Below the pieces are notes generated by a model. That model was not told the origin of the DNA. It saw nothing but the letters and a program-made list of their open reading frames with translations, and searched no databases. A stretch of DNA of 64,000 nt from Candidatus Lokiarchaeota archaeon (lineage in GTDB: Archaea; Asgardarchaeota; Thorarchaeia; Thorarchaeales; Thorarchaeaceae), in NCBI GenBank assembly GCA_014730275.1, contig WJIL01000016.1:124001-188000 (forward strand), written 5' to 3'. Below, in pieces: positions 5,210 to 49,341 of the stretch. The position numbers and the translations under genes were made by a program. How positions within the stretch are numbered: the stretch's first letter is position 1; each line of letters opens with the position of its first letter.

Positions 5210-6031
5210 ATGAATGTTATAAGAAACCATGTTATTGAAGCAAATATGACCGATGTACAAGTGCTTGCCACCGAATTCACCTCTAAGGGTGAAACTATAC
5301 GGGGCAATTTCGTTCTCCCCACCACTAAAGGGCCGTTTCCAGGTGTCTGCAAATTCCATGGTCTTCCAGGAGGACCTGACCAGGTCAGTGGAGTGGCAAC
5401 AAGGCTTGCTGAGGCAGGGTTTGCAGTTCTGGTGTTTGATTTTAGGGGGTTTAGAAAGAGCGATGGATTGTTTAGCCTGTCTGGAGAGATAGCTGATGCA
5501 AAAGTAGCAATCACTCATCTTATGCAATCAGACTTTGCGAGTGACTCTTGGGTTGGCGTGTATGGCGCAAGCTATGGTGCTGCAGTTGCAGTCTGTACAG
5601 CTGCATATGACAAAAGAATCGATACAGTTGTTCTGCGGGCACCAGTTTACGATACCCTCTGGTTTGCTAAGTCTCCAATGATTCAACCGGCTGTTGAAAA
5701 TATAATCAAAACAGATCCCAGCCAAATAAATCGAATTGAAGATCCTAAGATTCGAAAAAGAATCCTTCAGAGAATGATTGATGATGCTAAGATTCACAAT
5801 CCGATGGATGAAATAGCGAAGGTTTCCCCCATTCCTCTTCTTATTATCCACGGAGCTCAAGATACCGCTATCGATTTGGCTGGTGTGAAGAAGCTCTATG
5901 AACGAGGCGGTGAGCCAAAAGAATTTATCTTGGTAGAAGGTGCAGATCACGAGCTCTCTGACAATACTGCGTATGAAAGAACGGTACACAGTGTTGTCAA
6001 GTGGTTTTTGAAACAATGGAGAAACACATAG
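5210..6031 (+). CDS. Alpha/beta hydrolase (dienelactone hydrolase / acyl-peptidase-like)
   Basis: A 273-residue alpha/beta hydrolase. Visible features are the oxyanion-loop strand FHGLPGGPDQ (about 49-58), the nucleophile elbow GASYGA (Ser about 120), the strand before the acid PLLIIHGAQDTAID (Asp about 215) and a late His in EGADHEL (about 246). The catalytic triad therefore looks complete. The substrate is unknown; esters or short peptides are usual for the group. It stands alone, 67 nt after the ferredoxin. An ATG at 5246 is an alternative start. Confidence 0.82.
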   Translation: MNVIRNHVIEANMTDVQVLATEFTSKGETIRGNFVLPTTKGPFPGVCKFHGLPGGPDQVSGVATRLAEAGFAVLVFDFRGFRKSDGLFSLSGEIADAKVAITHLMQSDFASDSWVGVYGASYGAAVAVCTAAYDKRIDTVVLRAPVYDTLWFAKSPMIQPAVENIIKTDPSQINRIEDPKIRKRILQRMIDDAKIHNPMDEIAKVSPIPLLIIHGAQDTAIDLAGVKKLYERGGEPKEFILVEGADHELSDNTAYERTVHSVVKWFLKQWRNT

Positions 6032-29098: not shown

Positions 29099-30499
29099 GT
29101 GACCTTGCAAAACCTGATTCCCGTACATGTGGGACTTGTAGGCCACATAGACCATGGCAAAACAGAATTGGCGAAATGTCTTAGTGAAAAAGTATTCACA
29201 GCTGGCCTTGATAAGCATCCCCAGTCAAGAAAGCGCGGAATCACAATCGATTTGGGCTTCAGCATGTTTTCTTCCGACAAATACCTTGTGACCCTTGTTG
29301 ATGCTCCGGGTCATGCTGATTTGATTCGAAGCGTTGTAGCTGGTGCCAGTATCATTGATGCCGCTATTCTGACAGTTGCAGCTGATGAAGGCGTGCAGAT
29401 ACAGACCATCGAACATGCCACTGTTCTCAAGGCGATGGCTATAGACAAATTGCTTGTTGCCATTACGAAAACCGACCTTGTTGAGAACAATCAAGTGAAG
29501 CAGGTTTCAAGAGAAGTTGAAGGAATCGCAAAGCGATTGAAACTGGAGCCAGTTGATTATATCCCTGTCTCTGCGGAAACAGGTACTGGCATCCAGAAGC
29601 TGCGTGAGATACTGGTAGATTCACTTACTTCCCCCAACCGAGAGGATGAAGGCCCCCTTCGCATACCTATAGATCACGCATTTCCCGTTACTGGTCATGG
29701 AACTGTATTGACTGGCACTATTCTTAGGGGGTCTCTATCTACTGGTGATGCGGTACAATTGGTGCCAGGAGGAAGTCGAGCAACAGTACGTACGATTCAG
29801 ACCTTCGGACAGGAACGAGAGTCAGCAACCGCAGGTGATCGCGTGGGTGTGAATGCTCCAGCATTTGATCATAAACGCATTGAGCGTGGAAACTATCTCT
29901 GCACTCCTGATAGCATGAAGACTGCAGAATCCCTTCTAATAGGAGTCGAACTCAATCCGGGGTATGAGGGCCGTATTACTGCACGGATGGTTGTGAATGC
30001 AACGATTGGAATGTCGAGCGTTACTGCAGAAATCGTACCTTTCAGAGAGATGGATGGACGACGAATTACCGTCGAAGAACCTCAGGAGCGAGTATTCGAA
30101 GCTGCGCTGTTGCTGAAGGAGAAAGTACCTGCAGAAATAGGAAATCGTGTCCTACTCATGCGAACCGATATGCCTGTAACAAGTATGCGCATCGTTGGTT
30201 GTGGAATCATTGGTGACCTCATGAATGTAGTAACACTACACCACGTGCGGACGAGAAATGGAGAAATCAGTAGAATTCGAGATGAGGATGTACTGATAGA
30301 GGGCCTTGCCCGAAGCAAGCAAAAAGCACAATCACTGAAGGGACAAACCGTCCGTAGTGAAAATGGAGCTAAAGGAAGAATCTTGGATGCGTTTGGAACC
30401 CGTGGTGTCGTAATAGTGACATTTGAAGATGAAGTGGAACTCAAAGAGGAAGTCGTATTGGAGGACTACATAGAGGAGGAATACCGTTTTGGCAGATGA
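29099..30499 (+). CDS. selB: Selenocysteine-specific elongation factor SelB (archaeal/EFSec type)
   Basis: 466 residues. The GTPase domain has GHIDHGKTELAK, the effector/switch region KRGITIDLGFSMF, DAPGHADLIRSV and TKTDLV. Domains II and III follow, then a fourth domain with VRSENGAKGRILDAFGTRGVVIVTFEDEVELKEEVVLEDYI. The SelB-type insertion and lack of the bacterial C-terminal winged helices match archaeal SelB and eukaryotic EFSec. It carries Sec-tRNA to the ribosome. It overlaps the SepSecS start by 11 nt and is followed by tRNA-Sec. The start is GTG 29099 or TTG 29105; the latter has better spacing from GGGAG. Confidence 0.95.
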   Translation: MTLQNLIPVHVGLVGHIDHGKTELAKCLSEKVFTAGLDKHPQSRKRGITIDLGFSMFSSDKYLVTLVDAPGHADLIRSVVAGASIIDAAILTVAADEGVQIQTIEHATVLKAMAIDKLLVAITKTDLVENNQVKQVSREVEGIAKRLKLEPVDYIPVSAETGTGIQKLREILVDSLTSPNREDEGPLRIPIDHAFPVTGHGTVLTGTILRGSLSTGDAVQLVPGGSRATVRTIQTFGQERESATAGDRVGVNAPAFDHKRIERGNYLCTPDSMKTAESLLIGVELNPGYEGRITARMVVNATIGMSSVTAEIVPFREMDGRRITVEEPQERVFEAALLLKEKVPAEIGNRVLLMRTDMPVTSMRIVGCGIIGDLMNVVTLHHVRTRNGEISRIRDEDVLIEGLARSKQKAQSLKGQTVRSENGAKGRILDAFGTRGVVIVTFEDEVELKEEVVLEDYIEEEYRFGR

Positions 30500-31820
30500 G
30501 CCTATTGACCGATTTGAAGCACTTGTACCTCATAACATGAAAGAACGGGGGCGAATTACGCTTGAGGCATTGCTTTCACCAGTTCGTGATGTGATAAATC
30601 GAAGACAATTCCCGAAAGAACCGCTCTCAGAAGAACAGGTCGATTTACTGCTACGACTACTTTCATCAATGGATACAGACAAAGATCCAGATGCAGCAAG
30701 AGTGGGTGAACGAGAAGGAAGGACCGCTAGTCCAATGATACAGAAGCTGGCGGCAGGATTTAATCATGGCATTGGGCGCAGTGGCCATGTGACAGCTCCT
30801 CAGCCAAAGGCTCCGGGAGCATCTATAATGCAGAGAATAGCCAATTCTGTTGCCCTTGACGCCATTCGTGAGTTAGGCTTGCCCAATGTCCGAGCTGGTT
30901 TGGTTACTCCCCTTTCTACCGGCATGACACTAGCACTGGTATTCGGGGCATTTCGGAGGGAAATTGGCACACGAAACGTCATTTATCCACGTATTGATCA
31001 TACCTCACCTAAGCGGGCAATTCAACTTGCCGGACTAAACGAGAAGACTATACCCACTGTTCTGGATGGAGATGCAGTTGTCCCCGATATGAACGAATTT
31101 GAGAAGTGTTTGCAGGATGCAAAAAACGCAGCCGTTTTAGCAACAACCACCTTCTTCCCCCCACGTGAATCTGATCCTGTCAAAGCAATCGCCAAGCTAT
31201 GTGAAGAAAAACAGATACCTCTGGTGATCAACAACGCCTATGGTGTTCAATCGAAGCGTGTTATGAGCGAGATTCGTTCTGCAATTGATGCTGGCCGAGT
31301 TGATGCAGTTGTGCAGAGTAGTGACAAGAACTTCTTGGTGCCTGTTGGTGGTTCAATCCTAGTATCTCCTCGTGATGACATCATTGAACAGGCTGCTGAA
31401 ACGTATGCTGGGAGAGCAACGGCAGCACCAGTCGTTCAAACATTAGCCGCTTTGCTAGTTCTCGGACTGGAGGAATACAGCAAGTTACAGGAGGCACAGG
31501 TAAATAACCTCAATTTTCTGGAGGATGAGATGGCATCTATTGCCGATTCTGTTGATGAGCGCTTATTGTCGATTTGGAACCCAGTGGCATGTGCGATGAC
31601 TATTGACGGATTTGACGCAAAAAAGATTGGAGGGCGGCTCTATAACAGAAGAGTTACCGGTCCCCGAGCTGTACCTAAGAACGGGAAGGGAGCTTCAATC
31701 GATGGTTACCCACACAGCTACTTGGTGATGAATGCCGCCATCGGAGCAAGTCGTACAGACGTTAAACAAGCTACTACTAGACTATATAAGGAATTAACCG
31801 AATGGTTAAAGAAGGGTTGA
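30489..31820 (+). CDS. spcS: O-phosphoseryl-tRNA(Sec):selenocysteinyl-tRNA synthase (SepSecS)
   Basis: 443 residues, full length. This PLP enzyme converts Sep-tRNA(Sec) to Sec-tRNA(Sec) with selenophosphate. Visible family features are GFNHGIGRSGHVTAPQPKAPGAS, NVRAGLVTPLSTGMTLALVF, VLATTTFFPPRESDP, VINNAYGVQS and the PLP-lysine region VQSSDKNFLVPVGGSIL. The start is TTG 30489 behind GAGGAGG, inside the end of selB, so the two are translationally coupled. Confidence 0.96.
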   Translation: MADEPIDRFEALVPHNMKERGRITLEALLSPVRDVINRRQFPKEPLSEEQVDLLLRLLSSMDTDKDPDAARVGEREGRTASPMIQKLAAGFNHGIGRSGHVTAPQPKAPGASIMQRIANSVALDAIRELGLPNVRAGLVTPLSTGMTLALVFGAFRREIGTRNVIYPRIDHTSPKRAIQLAGLNEKTIPTVLDGDAVVPDMNEFEKCLQDAKNAAVLATTTFFPPRESDPVKAIAKLCEEKQIPLVINNAYGVQSKRVMSEIRSAIDAGRVDAVVQSSDKNFLVPVGGSILVSPRDDIIEQAAETYAGRATAAPVVQTLAALLVLGLEEYSKLQEAQVNNLNFLEDEMASIADSVDERLLSIWNPVACAMTIDGFDAKKIGGRLYNRRVTGPRAVPKNGKGASIDGYPHSYLVMNAAIGASRTDVKQATTRLYKELTEWLKKG

Positions 31821-31836
31821 AGGAGGCTTCTCCTGT

Positions 31837-32487
31837 ATGGAAGACTTGGAAAATCAGCCTAAGGTCAAGCGCACCATAACCTATGATCGTCCACAATCCT
31901 CAACCATATTCAGAATTTCTTGGTTCGCAATTGGATTGAAACCCGGGGCGATGCTCAACGAGTATAGTGAAGGGGAGGGCAAGCTGTTCAAGGGTAAGGC
32001 TATGTTTACAGTCCCTCTAGATGATACTAAGACGCAGGTCCGCTTGTGGGTGGAAGAAGCTCAGCGCTCTATCGAATTGACAGCTTGGGGTCCCGATAAG
32101 GAGATGCTGAATGACTACCTAGATGAAGTTGTTTCACGTTTGGAGACCTACATCGGCAAGTACTTGGAGCTATCTGATGAAGATAGACAGAAAGTCCGCC
32201 GGGCATTAGTTGCAAAAACATGTTGGGATCGCGTAGTCTATGAAATCCTGAACAAGGCGCCACTTAGTTCCATCTATGTTCAAGTTGCTCATGGCAGAGA
32301 AATGATGATCAAAGCAACCGAGGGCGAGGATATTCATCCACTAGCTTTGACGACGAGCGGATGGTTGACGAAAATCGAAGAACTCCCTCAAGATGAACCT
32401 CCACCATCTGATGTTGCGGAGAACCTTGCCAAGAAAACAGTAGAATGGAAGAAAGAAACACACGGCGTCATAGGAAACTATCTCTAG
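31837..32487 (+). CDS. Unknown protein in the selenocysteine operon
   Basis: 216 residues, 16 nt after sepSecS with a perfect SD (AAGGAGG), and 95 nt before tRNA-Sec on the same strand. The N-terminal half is a beta-rich region (TITYDRPQSSTIFRISWFAIGLKPGA, KGKAMFTVPLDDTKTQVRLWVEEAQRSIELTAWG). The rest is helical (LNDYLDEVVSRLETYIGKYLEL), then a short beta part with SSIYVQVAHGREMMIKATEGEDIHPLALTTSGW and a charged tail. It is not L7Ae, SBP2, SelD or SerRS. Position suggests a Sec-related role, such as SECIS binding or SelB assistance, but this is inference. Confidence 0.75.
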   Translation: MEDLENQPKVKRTITYDRPQSSTIFRISWFAIGLKPGAMLNEYSEGEGKLFKGKAMFTVPLDDTKTQVRLWVEEAQRSIELTAWGPDKEMLNDYLDEVVSRLETYIGKYLELSDEDRQKVRRALVAKTCWDRVVYEILNKAPLSSIYVQVAHGREMMIKATEGEDIHPLALTTSGWLTKIEELPQDEPPPSDVAENLAKKTVEWKKETHGVIGNYL

Positions 32488-32582
32488 ATGATCTGTTATC
32501 ACTGAACATCCTTCAGAAATCATTTGTTACTACCCGGGAACTTAAGTCCAAATCCAGCTGCATTCTAGCTTGATTCAAACAT

Positions 32583-32674
32583 GGCCCCCTCTAGGGACGG
32601 TGGACTGTCCCCGTGGGCTTCAAACCCATGAGTTCGCTAAGAACTAAGAGTTCGATTCTCTGGGGGGGCCGCCA
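32583..32674 (+). tRNA. tRNA-Sec (anticodon UCA)
   Basis: The cloverleaf can be drawn by hand. A 9-bp acceptor stem pairs GGCCCCCTC (32583-32591) with GGGGGGGCC (32662-32670). The D arm is GGGAC/GTCCC. A 6-bp anticodon stem CGTGGG/CCCATG encloses loop CTTCAAA, giving anticodon TCA at 32620-32622. The long variable arm is AGTTC-gctaa-GAACT. The T arm has only 4 bp, AGAG-TTCGATT-CTCT. Discriminator G at 32671 is followed by an encoded CCA (32672-32674). The 9+4 architecture, long variable arm and UCA anticodon are diagnostic of archaeal/eukaryotic tRNA-Sec. Confidence 0.96.
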
Positions 32675-32711
32675 CTTTTCCATCTGAAAGATTGGGCAGA
32701 AGAATACCACT

Positions 32712-33389
32712 ATGAGACCGGAAGGAAACAGAAACCCCAGTTACAGCTATTCAACCTTTGACAGACTGGCGGAGCGATACGATTCTTGGTTTGAACAAGC
32801 TGGCAGACTGATATTCTCAACTGAAGTCAGGGCTTTTCGTAGCGTCCTTCCAATGTTGCCTGAACCATGGCTTGAAATAGGTGTGGGGAGCGGCCGTTTT
32901 GCAAGGGCATTGGGCATTGATGTTGGTATTGATCCCTCTAGACAATTGCTTGAGATGGCGAAACAAAGGGGCATCGATGTCGTTCTTGCACGGGGCGAGG
33001 ACGCGGTATTCAAGAATGAAACCTTTGGTACTGTGTTTCTGATTGTCACTATATGTTTCCTAGATAATCCCATGAAGGTATTACACGAGATCCATAGAAT
33101 CCTCACACCGGAAGGCAGGGTTGTTCTTGGCTTGGTATTGTGGGATAGCCCTTGGGGAAGCTACTATCGAGAAAAGAAGGCTGAGGGCCATCCATTCTAT
33201 GATTATGCGACCTTCTTCAGCATGGATGAGATGTCGAAACTGCTTGAGGAAACTGATTTCACGATTGAGAAAACTGTCTCAACACTCTTCCAAGAACCGG
33301 AGAAGGTGAAACATATAGAAAAGGCACGCAAAGGATATTCTGCAAATGCGGGGTTCACTATTCTACTTGCTAGAAAAACAGGATGCTAA
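32712..33389 (+). CDS. Class I SAM-dependent methyltransferase
   Basis: 225 residues. FDRLAERYDSWFE near the start, then motif I WLEIGVGSGRFARALG, VGIDPSRQLLEMAKQRG (motif II), and EDAVFKNETFGTVFLIVTICFLDNPMKVLHEIHRILTPEGRVVLG. This is the UbiE/type-11 small-molecule methyltransferase layout. The substrate is unknown. It begins 37 nt after tRNA-Sec on the same strand, so it may be cotranscribed, but nothing ties it to selenium chemistry. Confidence 0.88.
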   Translation: MRPEGNRNPSYSYSTFDRLAERYDSWFEQAGRLIFSTEVRAFRSVLPMLPEPWLEIGVGSGRFARALGIDVGIDPSRQLLEMAKQRGIDVVLARGEDAVFKNETFGTVFLIVTICFLDNPMKVLHEIHRILTPEGRVVLGLVLWDSPWGSYYREKKAEGHPFYDYATFFSMDEMSKLLEETDFTIEKTVSTLFQEPEKVKHIEKARKGYSANAGFTILLARKTGC

Positions 33390-33463
33390 ATGTCGGTAAC
33401 GTACGGACGTGACGAAATGAGGATACAACACCTAAGGACCGCAGGAATGTTTAAACATCATGA

Positions 33464-34270
33464 GTGGCCACTCAAAATCCCAGCAACCATTCAGGGCAAC
33501 AGTCGTCAGACGTGATTGAAGTGATAGTAATGCTCCTTTTGCTTCTTGGAATCGGGTTCGCATCAGGCTTTATCAGTGGCCTCCTAGGTCTAGGCGGTGG
33601 TTCGATCAGAATTCCCCTTCTGAATTTGATAGGTTTCCCCCTGATTTTCGCTTATGGAATGAACTTTTTCACAATCCCTGTCTCCTGTTCGATGGGGGCC
33701 TACACCCAACGGGAGAATTTCGATTCCACATTTGGTTCTTCCATGGCTATCGGGGGGTCTATTGGTATGCTTATGGGCACTGCTGTGACCTTCTGGTTAT
33801 CAGCGTCAGCGCTAAGTATGGCAATCATGTTTGTTGTGGTCTCGATCCTGGCCGTAGTCGGCATGAATCTGAACCATATTGCACCTCACCTATCCAACGA
33901 ACTATCACCCTCAAGACGCGTTGTTGCGCTCGCAACATTCGGTGCTAATACGCTAGCTGCGATGAAGGGTGGTAGTGGTGCTTCACTATACGGCCCCCTC
34001 CTCAAGACCTTCAAAGTCAACATCCACAGAGCAATTGCTACTTCTCTCTTCGTTGCGACAATTACCTCAACAATTGGGGTGTTCCTCTATTGGAGCCAGG
34101 GCCAACTCCTATTGATCGAGGGACTAGCTGTTCTTGTGGGTTCACTGCTCGGCTCACGGGTTGGCAGCTTGCTCTCTCTTGATACTGAATCCAAATGGCT
34201 GGAAGTTGGGCTTTCTGTTGCTGTTGTTGCCTTAGCATCCATAACCTTGCTGAAAGCTTTATTCGCATAA
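33464..34270 (+). CDS. TauE/SafE family anion permease (DUF81)
   Basis: 268 residues with about eight membrane spans arranged as two halves. The repeat signatures are FASGFISGLLGLGGGSIRIPLL near the N-terminus and FGANTLAAMKGGSGASLYGPLLKTF in the second half, the G-x-G-G-G and polar loops of the TauE/SafE (sulfite/sulfoacetate exporter) family. Transported anion unknown. Its place between two Sec genes makes sulfur- or selenium-oxyanion movement conceivable, but there is no direct evidence. The start is GTG 33464. Confidence 0.85.
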   Translation: MATQNPSNHSGQQSSDVIEVIVMLLLLLGIGFASGFISGLLGLGGGSIRIPLLNLIGFPLIFAYGMNFFTIPVSCSMGAYTQRENFDSTFGSSMAIGGSIGMLMGTAVTFWLSASALSMAIMFVVVSILAVVGMNLNHIAPHLSNELSPSRRVVALATFGANTLAAMKGGSGASLYGPLLKTFKVNIHRAIATSLFVATITSTIGVFLYWSQGQLLLIEGLAVLVGSLLGSRVGSLLSLDTESKWLEVGLSVAVVALASITLLKALFA

Positions 34271-34319
34271 CTTTCACTGCTTCAGATAAACTCCGAGCAA
34301 GGCCATCATTCGCAGCAAG

Positions 34320-35099
34320 TCAGCGTTCTTTGGTCCCTACTCCTCTTTCTCTCGAGCTAAGCTTCTCCAACTCCGTTCTTAGTCGTGCCTTGGTAGCTCC
34401 AACGGTCCATTCATCGAGCAAGGCCTGCTGCAGTATTTCTCTCCTAGTCAAATGAACACGTTCATCCGGCCCAAGGTCTGGATTGTCTTCCAGAAAATCT
34501 GATACTACCCCCCTGGTTGCCACATCTAGTTGGTTGTTCTCCGTCTTCGCAACATCCTGTGGTTGTTCCTCAGCTTCTGCCTTTCGGAGGGCTTCAAGAA
34601 TTTCAATAGCCTCCTGAGTAGCGCTTTTCCTACTCAAATCAACTGTTGCCAGTGGCTCATCCCAAGCATATTTCTTTCCAGGAATGTCTAATCGATCATC
34701 GATTCTGTGAATGACGTGCTCTGGGACAATCATTCGGCGTTTTTTGTTCCATTTGAGAGCTACTTCAAGGGGTGTAGTAACGAACACGGTTCCATATACA
34801 CAGGTGTGGTTCAGCGCAATTTCGCGGATTTCGTGTCTCATACTTGCATAGTAGTTCGTATCGTCATGGACCACCGATAATCCGCTATCAGCTAAATCCC
34901 TTGTTCTCTCAAGCGCTTTTCTTCGTACTTCGTTCTCTTTCTTCGGCGAAAAATCTGCGTAGAATGCTTCGTCTCGCCAGTGATCTGTACTGACAAGTTC
35001 TACCTTTGATGGGTACAAATGATGGTGAATGATTTGCCGAGCTAAGGTTGTTTTTCCTGAGGCGGGTATACCGCAAAGAGCGACAACGAATTGTTTCAT
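34320..35099 (-). CDS. pstK: L-seryl-tRNA(Sec) kinase (PSTK)
   Basis: 259 residues. The kinase domain has P-loop CGIPASGKTTLA, LVSTDHWRDEAF, and the PSTK signature VHDDTNYYASMRHEIREIA. Then come RRMIVPEHVIHRIDDRLDIPGKKYAWDEPLATVDL and a helical C-terminal domain beginning ATRGVVSDFLEDNPDL that contacts the tRNA-Sec D arm. It phosphorylates Ser-tRNA(Sec) for SepSecS. The match to the Methanocaldococcus enzyme runs through the C-terminal domain, which separates it from Kti12-like relatives. It is encoded opposite to selB-sepSecS-tRNA-Sec, 1.6 kb from the tRNA. Confidence 0.92.
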   Translation of the reverse strand: MKQFVVALCGIPASGKTTLARQIIHHHLYPSKVELVSTDHWRDEAFYADFSPKKENEVRRKALERTRDLADSGLSVVHDDTNYYASMRHEIREIALNHTCVYGTVFVTTPLEVALKWNKKRRMIVPEHVIHRIDDRLDIPGKKYAWDEPLATVDLSRKSATQEAIEILEALRKAEAEEQPQDVAKTENNQLDVATRGVVSDFLEDNPDLGPDERVHLTRREILQQALLDEWTVGATKARLRTELEKLSSRERGVGTKER

Positions 35100-47569: not shown

Positions 47570-47792
47570 TCTACTTGTTTCACAAAACCCTCACTATATG
47601 AAGATTAGCTCAGTTCACGGCCCAGATCAGGAATCAAGCTTGTACTGTTAGCGATATATCATTGGAGAATGAAACATTACGAAAATGTAGTAAATTCATT
47701 TCCATCGAAGAAAAACTAACCTCATGATGACTTACGCTAATCACACTCCGTATTCGGGTTGCTAGGAATGCTCAGAGGTGTGGTATTCTAAG

Positions 47793-47880
47793 GAACTTGA
47801 CCAGCGAGCCCTTGCGGGGCTCGTCAGGTTGGGCCCACAGGTTTACGGCCCGACCGTCATCCGCCGCTGGTCTGCAGTTC
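47793..47880 (-). promoter_or_regulatory. Eukaryote-like SECIS element over the vhuU stop codon
   Basis: On the minus strand the RNA forms a long hairpin. The outer stems are GAACT/AGTTC and GACCAGCG/CGCTGGTC. The core has AUGA (47857-47860, overlapping the vhuU stop) opposite UGA (47824-47826). Between them a helix GGTCGGGCC / GGCCCAACC (one mismatch) closes an apical loop GTAAACCTGTG with AAA at 47842-47844. AUGA, 12 nt, AA in the loop, and UGA on the 3' side is the eukaryotic SECIS layout (tandem G.A quartet), not the compact archaeal GAA-A form known from methanogens. A smaller hairpin (CGAGCCC/GGGCTCG) could compete with the outer stem. Confidence 0.78.
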
Positions 47881-48015
47881 CTTTCTTGCTATCTCGCGAC
47901 CCTCATCGTCGACAACGACTAAATGAGCGCCGCATGATAGTCAGCAGTCATAGCACCGCACAACCATCTCAAGGAGGTTGAGCAGGCCTTCATCGATTTG
48001 TTCTGTTTGTGTCAT
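47857..48015 (-). CDS. vhuU: Selenoprotein VhuU: Sec-containing C-terminal piece of the [NiFe] hydrogenase large subunit
   Basis: A 52-codon gene read on the minus strand from ATG 48015 to TGA 47857-47859, with one in-frame UGA at 47941-47943 (codon 25). With UGA read as Sec (U) the core is LLNLLEMVVRCYDCULSCGAH, and U-x-x-C-x-x-H matches the C-terminal Ni ligand motif of hydrogenase large subunits, Sec taking the first Cys position. The preceding gene (mvhA) ends 12 nt upstream without this motif. GGTGAT is 3 nt before the ATG. About 20 residues (LVVVDDEGREIARKELQTSGG) follow the His and may be removed by the maturation protease. An adjacent SECIS-like hairpin and the Sec machinery at 29-35 kb support UGA recoding. 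Confidence 0.9.
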
Positions 48016-48027
48016 TGTATCACCGTT

Positions 48028-49341
48028 TTACTTGATCATAGGATCAGGTAGGTTCAAGTTTTCGTGCTCTTTGTTCTCGAACACTTGTTTGGCTGCTTTC
48101 ATCAGGCTTTTCTCAATGCCGCCTATATTGTTATTGGTCGCGACCACGAGGTTTGTTTTCGTTACTATCCCTTTTTCGTCTGTCCAGTAATGATGAAGCA
48201 GCGTTCCTCGTGGGGCTTCCACAACACCCACGCCATTGCCTTTCTTGGGTTCAACATCACTGAGTTTCACATCTGTGCTGACAATCTCGGGATCTGTAAG
48301 CAGTTTCTCCATTTCTTCAACTGCTTGTATCATCTCAATGACCCTTGCCCAATGATAAGCGAATGTAGCATGGGTAGGTCTTCCGAGTTTCTCCCTAAGC
48401 TCCTCAAGCGCTTCTTGCGCCAGCGGAGTAGGCATCTTATCAGCTACATTGATTCTAGCGAGGCTGTTTGCCCGCCAGACCCCCTCTGGATACCCAGCTG
48501 GTTTGTAGTAGATATGAGTGGCATAGGAGTGATCAGGGACGTGCTCGCCATAGTACTTTCTGTATCTCTTAGCAGGAAAGTTTTCAACGATTTCTCCTTC
48601 AGGATTCATAACACGCAGGCGACCATCATAGATTTCATAGTTTCCGCGGTAATGCATACCAAGATAGTATGTTGGCACAACCGCAAAATTCTCGATAACG
48701 TCCCAGTAATCATCAACAACCTTCTTTGCGAGCTCCACAGTATCAGTTGTCCATTCCTTCAAGTCTTCCATTCTTTCGAGGAAGTTGTCTCTGTGTTCCT
48801 CCGAAAACGGGTTCAGCATACCGCCTGGAGTTGCGGTAACAGGATGGATTGATTTTCCACCTATTGCGGAGACTAAATCCTGGCCGTATTCCATGACTTG
48901 GAGAGCAAGCTTGCCTACATCTGGGAGCGACTTGATTATGTTGACAACATTCCGTTGTGACGGGTCCGCAAATGGCCCTGCGAGAAAATCAGGGGCAGCT
49001 AGCGCGAAGAAATGAAGTCCATGAGAGGATAGTTGTTTGGCGTTCAAGAACAGCCTGCGAACTTTCTCTGCTGCGGATGGCGGATTCACGTCCCATGCGG
49101 CTTCCACCGCTTTCACTGATGCGAGAAGGTGTGGGACCGGGCAGATACCACAAATTCGCTCTGCTATTCTTGGTACCTCTTCAGCCAAACGCCCTTCCAG
49201 GAACTTCTCGAAGAAACGGGTGCTGGAAATGTTGAACTGAACGTCCTTTACCTTTCCGCCTTTGCCCAGCTTGATTGTGAGTTCTCCATGTCCCTCAAGC
49301 CGGGTAACAGGTTCAATCCGAATTGTCCTCTCGTCTGTCAT
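48028..49341 (-). CDS. mvhA: [NiFe] hydrogenase large subunit MvhA/VhuA, lacking the C-terminal Ni motif
   Basis: 437 residues. The N-terminal nickel motif is RICGICPVPHLLASVKAVE (about 62-80; R-x-C-G-x-C-x-x-x-H), followed by the usual helical core. The protein ends LNLPDPMIK and a TAA stop, without the D-P-C-x-x-C-x-x-H motif that normally closes the subunit. The missing motif is supplied by vhuU 12 nt downstream, as in the split VhuA/VhuU of some methanococci. Start ATG overlaps the mvhG stop (TAATG). It is the catalytic subunit of the H2-oxidising Mvh (group 3c) complex that feeds HdrA. Confidence 0.93.
   Translation of the reverse strand: MTDERTIRIEPVTRLEGHGELTIKLGKGGKVKDVQFNISSTRFFEKFLEGRLAEEVPRIAERICGICPVPHLLASVKAVEAAWDVNPPSAAEKVRRLFLNAKQLSSHGLHFFALAAPDFLAGPFADPSQRNVVNIIKSLPDVGKLALQVMEYGQDLVSAIGGKSIHPVTATPGGMLNPFSEEHRDNFLERMEDLKEWTTDTVELAKKVVDDYWDVIENFAVVPTYYLGMHYRGNYEIYDGRLRVMNPEGEIVENFPAKRYRKYYGEHVPDHSYATHIYYKPAGYPEGVWRANSLARINVADKMPTPLAQEALEELREKLGRPTHATFAYHWARVIEMIQAVEEMEKLLTDPEIVSTDVKLSDVEPKKGNGVGVVEAPRGTLLHHYWTDEKGIVTKTNLVVATNNNIGGIEKSLMKAAKQVFENKEHENLNLPDPMIK

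Follow-up and report, generated by a model that had tools for sequence, protein, structure and literature searches.

SECIS elements with a eukaryote-like core, overlapping the stop codon of their gene, were reportedly described from Lokiarchaeota by Mariotti et al. in 2016. Huang et al. (2024, PMC11227280), in the text portions available, assign eSECIS-like structures to 1224 of the 1439 selenoprotein genes of Asgard archaea, type I predominating for frhA, a family that includes VhuU. The criteria given there for type I are a GA_[G/A]A core, an upper stem of 7-15 bp with at most 2 mismatches, a loop of 8-20 nt and no ministem; G[U/G]AAA loops are reported for the majority of Thorarchaeia frhA genes, and in Lokiarchaeia the stop codons are stated often to overlap AUGA. 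In the same portions SBP2 is reported absent from Asgard, an Asgard-only hypothetical protein near the Sec genes is pointed out, and the SECIS parts named are core, upper stem, apical loop, internal loop and lower stem only. A 2022 review, as far as its available text goes, attributes only one apical loop to the Lokiarchaeota SECIS (PMC9499178), and a lokiarchaeal SECIS is reported, in the accessible part of PMC11881835, to be non-functional in Methanococcus maripaludis. A second relevant class of RNA is the k-junction, a kink-turn variant with an additional helix on the non-bulged strand; Archaeoglobus L7Ae failed to fold two k-junctions, and the authors expect hindrance by the third helix (PMC4005666, PMC10573300, available portions).

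The element described here lies in a stretch of 64,000 nt (hereafter the window) from a genome of the Thorarchaeia (G000:C16:124001-188000). It is an authentic SECIS, known in kind, with a third helix that is undescribed as far as our literature searches reach. These full-text searches found no report of a k-junction SECIS, of an Asgard SECIS with a third helix or of an element after cysS, and the papers retrieved on SECIS and three-way junctions included none on Asgard by title. The only full-text paper with both k-junction and SECIS was PMC11227280, which, in its available text, cites a k-junction paper for the GA_AA pairing; a third helix was not found in that text (0 occurrences of "hairpin"; figures and supplements lie outside the scope of this statement).

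The vhuU locus and the Sec machinery

The gene that the element follows encodes a 52-aa [NiFeSe]-hydrogenase selenoprotein with 1 in-frame TGA in its translation, MTQTEQIDEGLLNLLEMVVRCYDCULSCGAHLVVVDDEGREIARKELQTSGG. It lies downstream of vhuA, and genes of the Sec machinery are found elsewhere in the window:

48028-49341, minus strand: vhuA, hydrogenase large subunit, lacking the C-terminal piece found on VhuU (NF041785, TIGR03295, PF00374)
47857-48015, minus strand: vhuU, F420-non-reducing [NiFeSe] hydrogenase selenoprotein subunit with the CYDCULSC motif (translation, NF041786)
47941-47943, minus strand: Sec UGA codon, residue 25 of VhuU (translation; relatives have UGA at the same place)
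47857-47859, minus strand: stop UGA of vhuU, within the SECIS core
29099-30499, plus strand: SelB/EFSec (TIGR00475, 266.3 bits, above the cut-off)
30489-31820, plus strand: SepSecS (TIGR03531, 448.5 bits, above the cut-off)
31837-32487, plus strand: NF045535, Asgard putative Sec-system protein and possible SECIS reader (229.1 bits, above the cut-off)
32583-32670, plus strand: tRNA-Sec (RF01852, 55.9 bits; ARAGORN, 32583-32674, anticodon tca)
34320-35099, minus strand: probable PSTK (best model TIGR03574, 121.4 bits, below the cut-off of 290.5)

VhuU scored 54.2 bits against NF041786 (E 9e-15), below the cut-off of 70, and VhuA 491 bits against NF041785, also below its cut-off, together with a match to PF00374. 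The two proteins share the frhA model TIGR03295 between them, VhuA matching positions 3-376 and VhuU positions 377-410. The CYDCULSC motif and the frame recur in 38 distinct regions found with a single protein motif search. The Sec cluster is compact (29099-35099), with SelB, SepSecS, NF045535 and tRNA-Sec on one strand and the PSTK-like gene on the other, and lies, measured from its near end, some 13 kb away from vhuU. The NF045535 protein matches no Pfam family at E 0.001, and its single-sequence structure model is poor (mean pLDDT 52.7). Sec insertion into VhuU is very likely.

The neighboring VhuD frame (50785-50255) is a Cys form without UGA. Among the matches listed for the source genome of the window (G000), those to the SelD, VhuD/FlpD, HdrA and peroxiredoxin-like queries have no in-frame stop, so vhuU may be the sole selenoprotein gene of this genome, judged from the subset of families tested. 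The genome also has a second vhuA paralogue (L281, G000:C102:1-1200), with no vhuU visible by eye and no SECIS match reported downstream.

An element with three helices

The eSECIS-like element occupies positions 47792-47881 of the minus strand. Read 5' to 3' on that strand, the 5' strands of P1a and P1b, formed by the last coding bases, are followed by AUGA, P2, UGAC, P3 and the 3' strand of P1b:

47876-47881, minus strand: P1a, 5' strand GGAACU, coding (pair probability 0.98-1.0; outermost part in relatives, 0/4 pairs double-changed, 77.7% paired)
47866-47872, minus strand: P1b, 5' strand GACCAGC, coding (pair probabilities; 6/8 pairs changed on both sides)
47857-47860, minus strand: AUGA of the quartet, 5' side (AUGA in 37/37 aligned vhuU rows)
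47847-47855, minus strand: P2, core helix, 5' strand (9/9 pairs with a change on both sides in at least one sequence)
47836-47846, minus strand: apical loop GUAAACCUGUG with the conserved AAA at 47844-47842 (two A columns invariant or nearly so)
47827-47835, minus strand: P2, 3' strand (pair probabilities, covariation)
47824-47825, minus strand: GA of the quartet, 3' side, followed by the invariant C (GAC in 37/37 rows)
47806-47822, minus strand: P3, third helix GAGCCC-CGCAA-GGGCUC, abutting P1b without a spacer (pair probabilities; covariation in vhuU, selD and cysS elements)
47799-47805, minus strand: P1b, 3' strand GCUGGUC (pair probabilities, covariation)
47792-47797, minus strand: P1a, 3' strand AGUUCC (pair probabilities)

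The first-pass annotation had proposed a eukaryote-style SECIS hairpin with most of these parts, and they were located as described: AUGA overlapping the UGA stop at 47860-47857, its A completing the final Gly codon, AAA (47844-47842) in the apical loop at a distance of 12 nt from AUGA, UGA on the 3' side (47826-47824), and the outer stems GAACT/AGTTC and GACCAGCG/CGCTGGTC, both on the minus strand. The helix of 9 bp corresponds to the core helix of 47855-47847 with 47835-47827 and consists more exactly of 8 Watson-Crick pairs and one C.A mismatch. What the annotation overlooked is the P3 hairpin, in which 47822-47817 pair with 47811-47806 around the loop CGCAA. This hairpin directly adjoins the lower stem (spacer of 0 nt) and takes the C-G pair that ends the second outer stem.

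Folding of the region 47780-47900 yielded an MFE of -49.7 kcal/mol (z -3.22, 0/200 shuffles equally low), with pair probabilities of 0.94-1.00 for the outer stems, 0.77-0.99 for the core helix and 0.88-0.99 for the third helix. A better fold without apposition of AUGA and UGA would have spoken against the element; in the best fold, AUGA does face GA. Within the 64-kb window the bare motif (AUGA, helix, AA, GA) occurs 8 times, while 20 Markov-resampled windows average 8.9, and the vhuU site only ties the top resampled motif score (14). The bare motif is no rarer than expected by chance; the case for a SECIS rests on position and covariation, not on the motif.

Covariation and distribution

The vhuU set comprises 38 distinct downstream regions; they come from a search with a single protein motif that passes over variants such as L038 and L042. 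AUGA overlaps the UGA stop in 37 of the 38; the exception, L043, in which vhuU ends with TAA and lacks AUGA, was omitted from the MAFFT alignment of the other 37 loci (A1). AUGA and GAC are invariant in all 37 rows, and the three-way structure pairs 87.0% of cells, compared with 34-51% when it is slid by 1-3 columns. Compensatory changes, the absence of which in homologs had been named as grounds for rejecting the element, are found in 18 of the 26 pairs, i.e. these pairs changed on both sides: 6/8 in P1b, 9/9 in P2 and 3/5 in P3 (93.3% of P3 cells paired). The outermost four pairs are weak, with 77.7% of cells paired and no double change. An alignment of 42 matches fitted to the covariance model, which leans to the modeled structure and includes degenerate copies, gave 93.0% paired cells and 19/22 pairs changed on both sides. 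The P3 loop is N-GNRA-like in 27/37 vhuU elements. As to secondary structure, a three-way junction is supported by this covariation, although the complete set of three helices is seen in the single-sequence MFE folds of only 22/37 vhuU, 20/32 selD and 6/10 cysS elements.

An independent gene, selD, has the same three helices. In 47 genomes of the window's family, 42 had a selD match at the threshold used, with 43 copies in total, of which 36 have 1 TGA. Among 34 of these 36 loci (G011 and G021 were left out), [A/G/C]UGA overlaps the selD stop in 32 (17 AUGA, 14 GUGA, 1 CUGA); at the two loci not caught, the selD region is matched by the covariance model R2. In the 32 loci 94.3% of cells are paired (P1 99.6%, P2 86.5%, P3 96.2%), compared with 32-45% when the structure is slid, and 14/18 pairs changed on both sides, including 5/5 in P3; the P3 loop is N-GNRA in 32/32. 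Overlap with the stop codon, called unusual by the first-pass annotation, is on the contrary the rule (37/38 vhuU, 32/34 selD), as was already stated for Lokiarchaeia (PMC11227280).

The Cys homologs served as controls: the element is absent, by eye, from the 3' end of all 6 SelD-Cys loci read (L188-L193) and of 1 VhuU-Cys locus (L090), and no covariance-model match was reported for these loci among the part of the first-look candidates that was scored. The SelD of the source genome is itself a Cys form (GCACK; L282, G000:C15:1-900), preceded in frame by what we take to be the end of a NifS-like cysteine desulfurase, and no R2 match was reported in this genome.

The same data bear on a first rival explanation, namely a plain hairpin of the eukaryotic type with a large internal loop on the 3' side, P3 being incidental or a mere spacer. 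The descriptions in PMC11227280, whose parts list has no third helix, and in PMC9499178, with one apical loop, would agree with it as far as their available texts go, and P3 appears in 25 of the 37 vhuU MFE folds, not in all. However, P3 covaries in three genes (3/5 pairs in vhuU, 5/5 in selD and 2/5 in cysS elements, the last in a fitted alignment) and keeps an N-GNRA-like loop in 32/32 selD, 9/10 cysS and 27/37 vhuU elements, so we regard this explanation as unlikely.

According to another alternative, the distal part pairs otherwise, the strand GCGGCGG of the Gly codons with CCCCGC of the putative P3, either as the stable fold or as a switch. This pairing is the RNAalifold consensus on the raw alignment A1, 94.3% of its cells pair, and the conservation of YGC in the P3 loop would suit it. 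It is, however, carried by nearly invariant G/C columns under protein constraint, its 10 pairs contain 6 double-change cells, whereas the 26 pairs of the three-way junction contain 87, and it appears in just 2/37 vhuU MFE folds, which makes it very improbable.

Searches with R1 over 227 genomes of the phylum gave matches in 45, of which 38 are within the window's family. The 8 matches outside the family, in 7 genomes, follow vhuU (4), vhuD-Sec (1), hdrA (1), a peroxiredoxin-like UxxU gene (1) and the gene at L243 (1). P3 can be formed by the sequence in 8/8 of them and appears in the MFE folds of 7/8 (not in L238), and 6/8 have the CGCAA loop; these matches are biased toward P3, because R1 itself contains it. 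L036, L037 and L040, found by the protein motif alone, also show P3. No second R1 match was reported in the source genome, where 150 of 359 first-look candidates were scored; a different SECIS in the transcript, also named as grounds for rejecting the element, did not turn up in this search. As the R1 and R2 genome searches scored part of the first-look candidates, with stricter filters in three of the four, absence in them is weaker than presence. R2 matches of 18-21 bits in six genomes were judged to be noise on viewing the sequences.

Two of the outside loci are of separate interest. At L243 (G162:C37:62900-64900) a SECIS-like three-helix element follows a gene that is possibly an unrecognized selenoprotein, or else it is another element without a UGA to serve. 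L244:719-1246 (minus strand) is a peroxiredoxin-like frame whose UxxU motif accounts for two UGA codons; another UGA, at residue 4 of the stretch as translated, possibly precedes the start.

An element of this type also follows cysS, a gene without a Sec codon. cysS was found in 35 of the 47 family genomes, and its 3' end was read in 34 of the 35 (G011, in which the C-terminus is not covered, was left out). An R1 element lies directly after the stop codon in 9 of these 34 (loci L175-L182 and L252), in G019, G023, G024, G027, G028, G030, G031 and G032 of genus g9 and in G042 of g13; the remaining 25 ends, that of the source genome included, have no R1 match. A tenth copy of the cysS type, in G035 (L183), lies beside an assembly gap, with cysS itself not seen there; it is included in alignments A5 and A6 and excluded from the count of 9/34. 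An alignment of nine loci (eight cysS and the G035 copy) shows the element conserved and the flanks on either side not. AUGA, AAAG and GAC are invariant in 10/10 elements, the P3 loop is N-GNRA-like in 9/10, and 14/22 pairs covary (2/5 in P3) in an alignment fitted to the model.

CysRS was considered as an unrecognized selenoprotein and rejected: 0 of the 35 cysS matches have an internal stop, and eight loci are in frame without UGA before the stop TAA, TAG or TGA (L181 minus its first residues). A small upstream ORF lacks UGA in the 6 loci viewed. The downstream genes, judged by eye, mostly differ; L179 and L182 have in common an ABC-ATPase-like frame, without UGA in the part viewed. A regulatory use of the cysS element may be inferred; its patchy spread within one genus also allows a recent gain or a relic. 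With no UGA to recode, this would be a SECIS that serves something other than Sec insertion.

That the conserved structure is a transcript-end element, i.e. a terminator or 3'-stability hairpin with SECIS-like letters by chance, can be all but dismissed: it does sit at the gene end in vhuU, and several cysS genes lacking the element carry a simple hairpin at the same place, but AUGA, AA and GAC are invariant and the element follows Sec-encoding vhuU and selD while missing from the seven Cys homologs read.

Eight extra copies or decayed pieces of the vhuU tail with SECIS, without an intact vhuU directly in front, were seen in 7 genomes (G019, G024, G025, G027, G028, G031, G034):

L014:4826-4924 and 5392-5489; L016:4982-5055; L030:4828-4922; L034:3042-3140: extra vhuU-tail/SECIS copies
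L185 near 1452; L186 near 2098 and L187 near 3786 (the last two on the reverse complement): extra vhuU-tail/SECIS copies

In L014 the repeat starts at identical vhuU codons in all three copies, between which lie small genes such as a DUF433/DUF5615 pair; a DUF6036-like nucleotidyltransferase lies between the copies in L016 and L034 (Pfam) and in L030 (by eye). From these sequences it looks as if insertion had occurred repeatedly at the vhuU 3' end.

Proposed mechanism and comparison with known systems

The interpretation that we favor with considerable confidence is that the element is the SECIS of vhuU, directing Sec at 47943-47941, and that it is a three-way junction RNA; the k-junction and the reader are parts of this proposal inferred from the layout and from published tests. 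Its support consists of the position after Sec genes, the covarying junction, the invariant quartet letters, the presence of the machinery and the absence from the Cys homologs read. SelB/EFSec with Sec-tRNA-Sec would read the UGA, about 80 nt upstream of the SECIS, as Sec. P1, the outer stem whose 5' strand is formed by the last vhuU codons, and P3, the hairpin with the N-GNRA-like loop, abut and probably stack coaxially, while P2, bearing the AAA apical loop, would leave the junction via tandem G.A pairs of AUGA and GA. The SECIS would thereby fold as a k-junction, that is, as a kink turn whose non-bulged strand carries one more helix. The reader could be SelB/EFSec itself or an Asgard factor such as NF045535 rather than a protein of the L7Ae/SBP2 type, which would then be disfavored because k-junctions did not fold with L7Ae in the published tests as far as available (PMC4005666, PMC10573300); the reported absence of SBP2 from Asgard (PMC11227280, available text) fits this. 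With the stop codon inside the core, every ribosome that terminates would melt the element, which would then have to refold before the next one.

On a wider scale, we tentatively suggest, as a view for which we would claim well below even chances, that Asgard SECIS elements are k-junctions whose third helix closes the site for the L7Ae fold, which would keep them clear of abundant L7Ae and leave them to be read by SelB/EFSec or an Asgard factor; that eukaryotes lost the third helix when SBP2 took over; and that the module was recruited after cysS in some Thorarchaeia, the Sec machinery tying CysRS to the selenium supply. If the Asgard SECIS is a k-junction, one may conjecture that loss of P3 was a prerequisite for SBP2 in eukaryotes. 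The third helix bears on what reads the archaeal SECIS and on how the archaeal signal became the eukaryotic one, and it may bear on the failure of the lokiarchaeal SECIS in a methanogen (PMC11881835, accessible part).

Compared with k-junctions (TPP riboswitch, DUF-3268), as described in the available parts of the published work, the element has in common the G.A tandem, here predicted for AUGA/GA, and an additional helix that sits on the non-bulged strand and abuts the canonical one; the order AUGA/GA, P3, P1, in which P3 runs into P1 with 0 nt in between, matches at the level of secondary structure, on which the whole comparison is based, and the window element differs by the 7 nt that separate P1 from the G of AUGA. 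With the methanogen SECIS (eaSECIS, GAA_A) it shares the position in the 3'-UTR of an archaeal gene and vhuU as a client, but the GAA_A internal bulge between two stems is the methanogens' own: the range 48015-47569 (minus strand) contains 0 GAA_A patterns, in agreement with the first-pass annotation.

With Asgard type I (PMC11227280, available text) the element shares the AUGA_GA core, upper stem, loop size and stop overlap: it has 9 positions with one C.A mismatch and an 11-nt loop, and the gene that it follows contains a Sec UGA in frame. As both a eukaryote-like SECIS, in print there for Thorarchaeia, and the stop overlap are published in that paper, the main claim of the first-pass annotation was already known; the third helix, the three-way junction and an element after a gene without UGA are found here and not in that text. 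The vhuU loci L037 and L040, both from one MAG titled Lokiarchaeota, show P3, in contrast to the single apical loop given for the Lokiarchaeota SECIS in the available text of PMC9499178.

Finally, with the eukaryotic SECIS (RF00031) the element has in common the AUGA_GA quartet, AA 12 nt after AUGA and the lower stem, while the third helix and the overlap with the coding end belong to the Asgard element. Its score against Rfam SECIS_1 (RF00031) is 17.8 bits, below the gathering score of 35, and instead of two stems in a single hairpin it has a third helix with covariation. The quartet/kink-turn plan of eukaryotes, to which the locus had been assigned in preference to GAA-A, therefore holds for the AUGA_GA quartet and agrees with the Sec machinery present, but it is not simply eukaryotic, because the conserved third helix makes a three-way junction, and this helix is a concrete difference between Asgard and eukaryotic SECIS.
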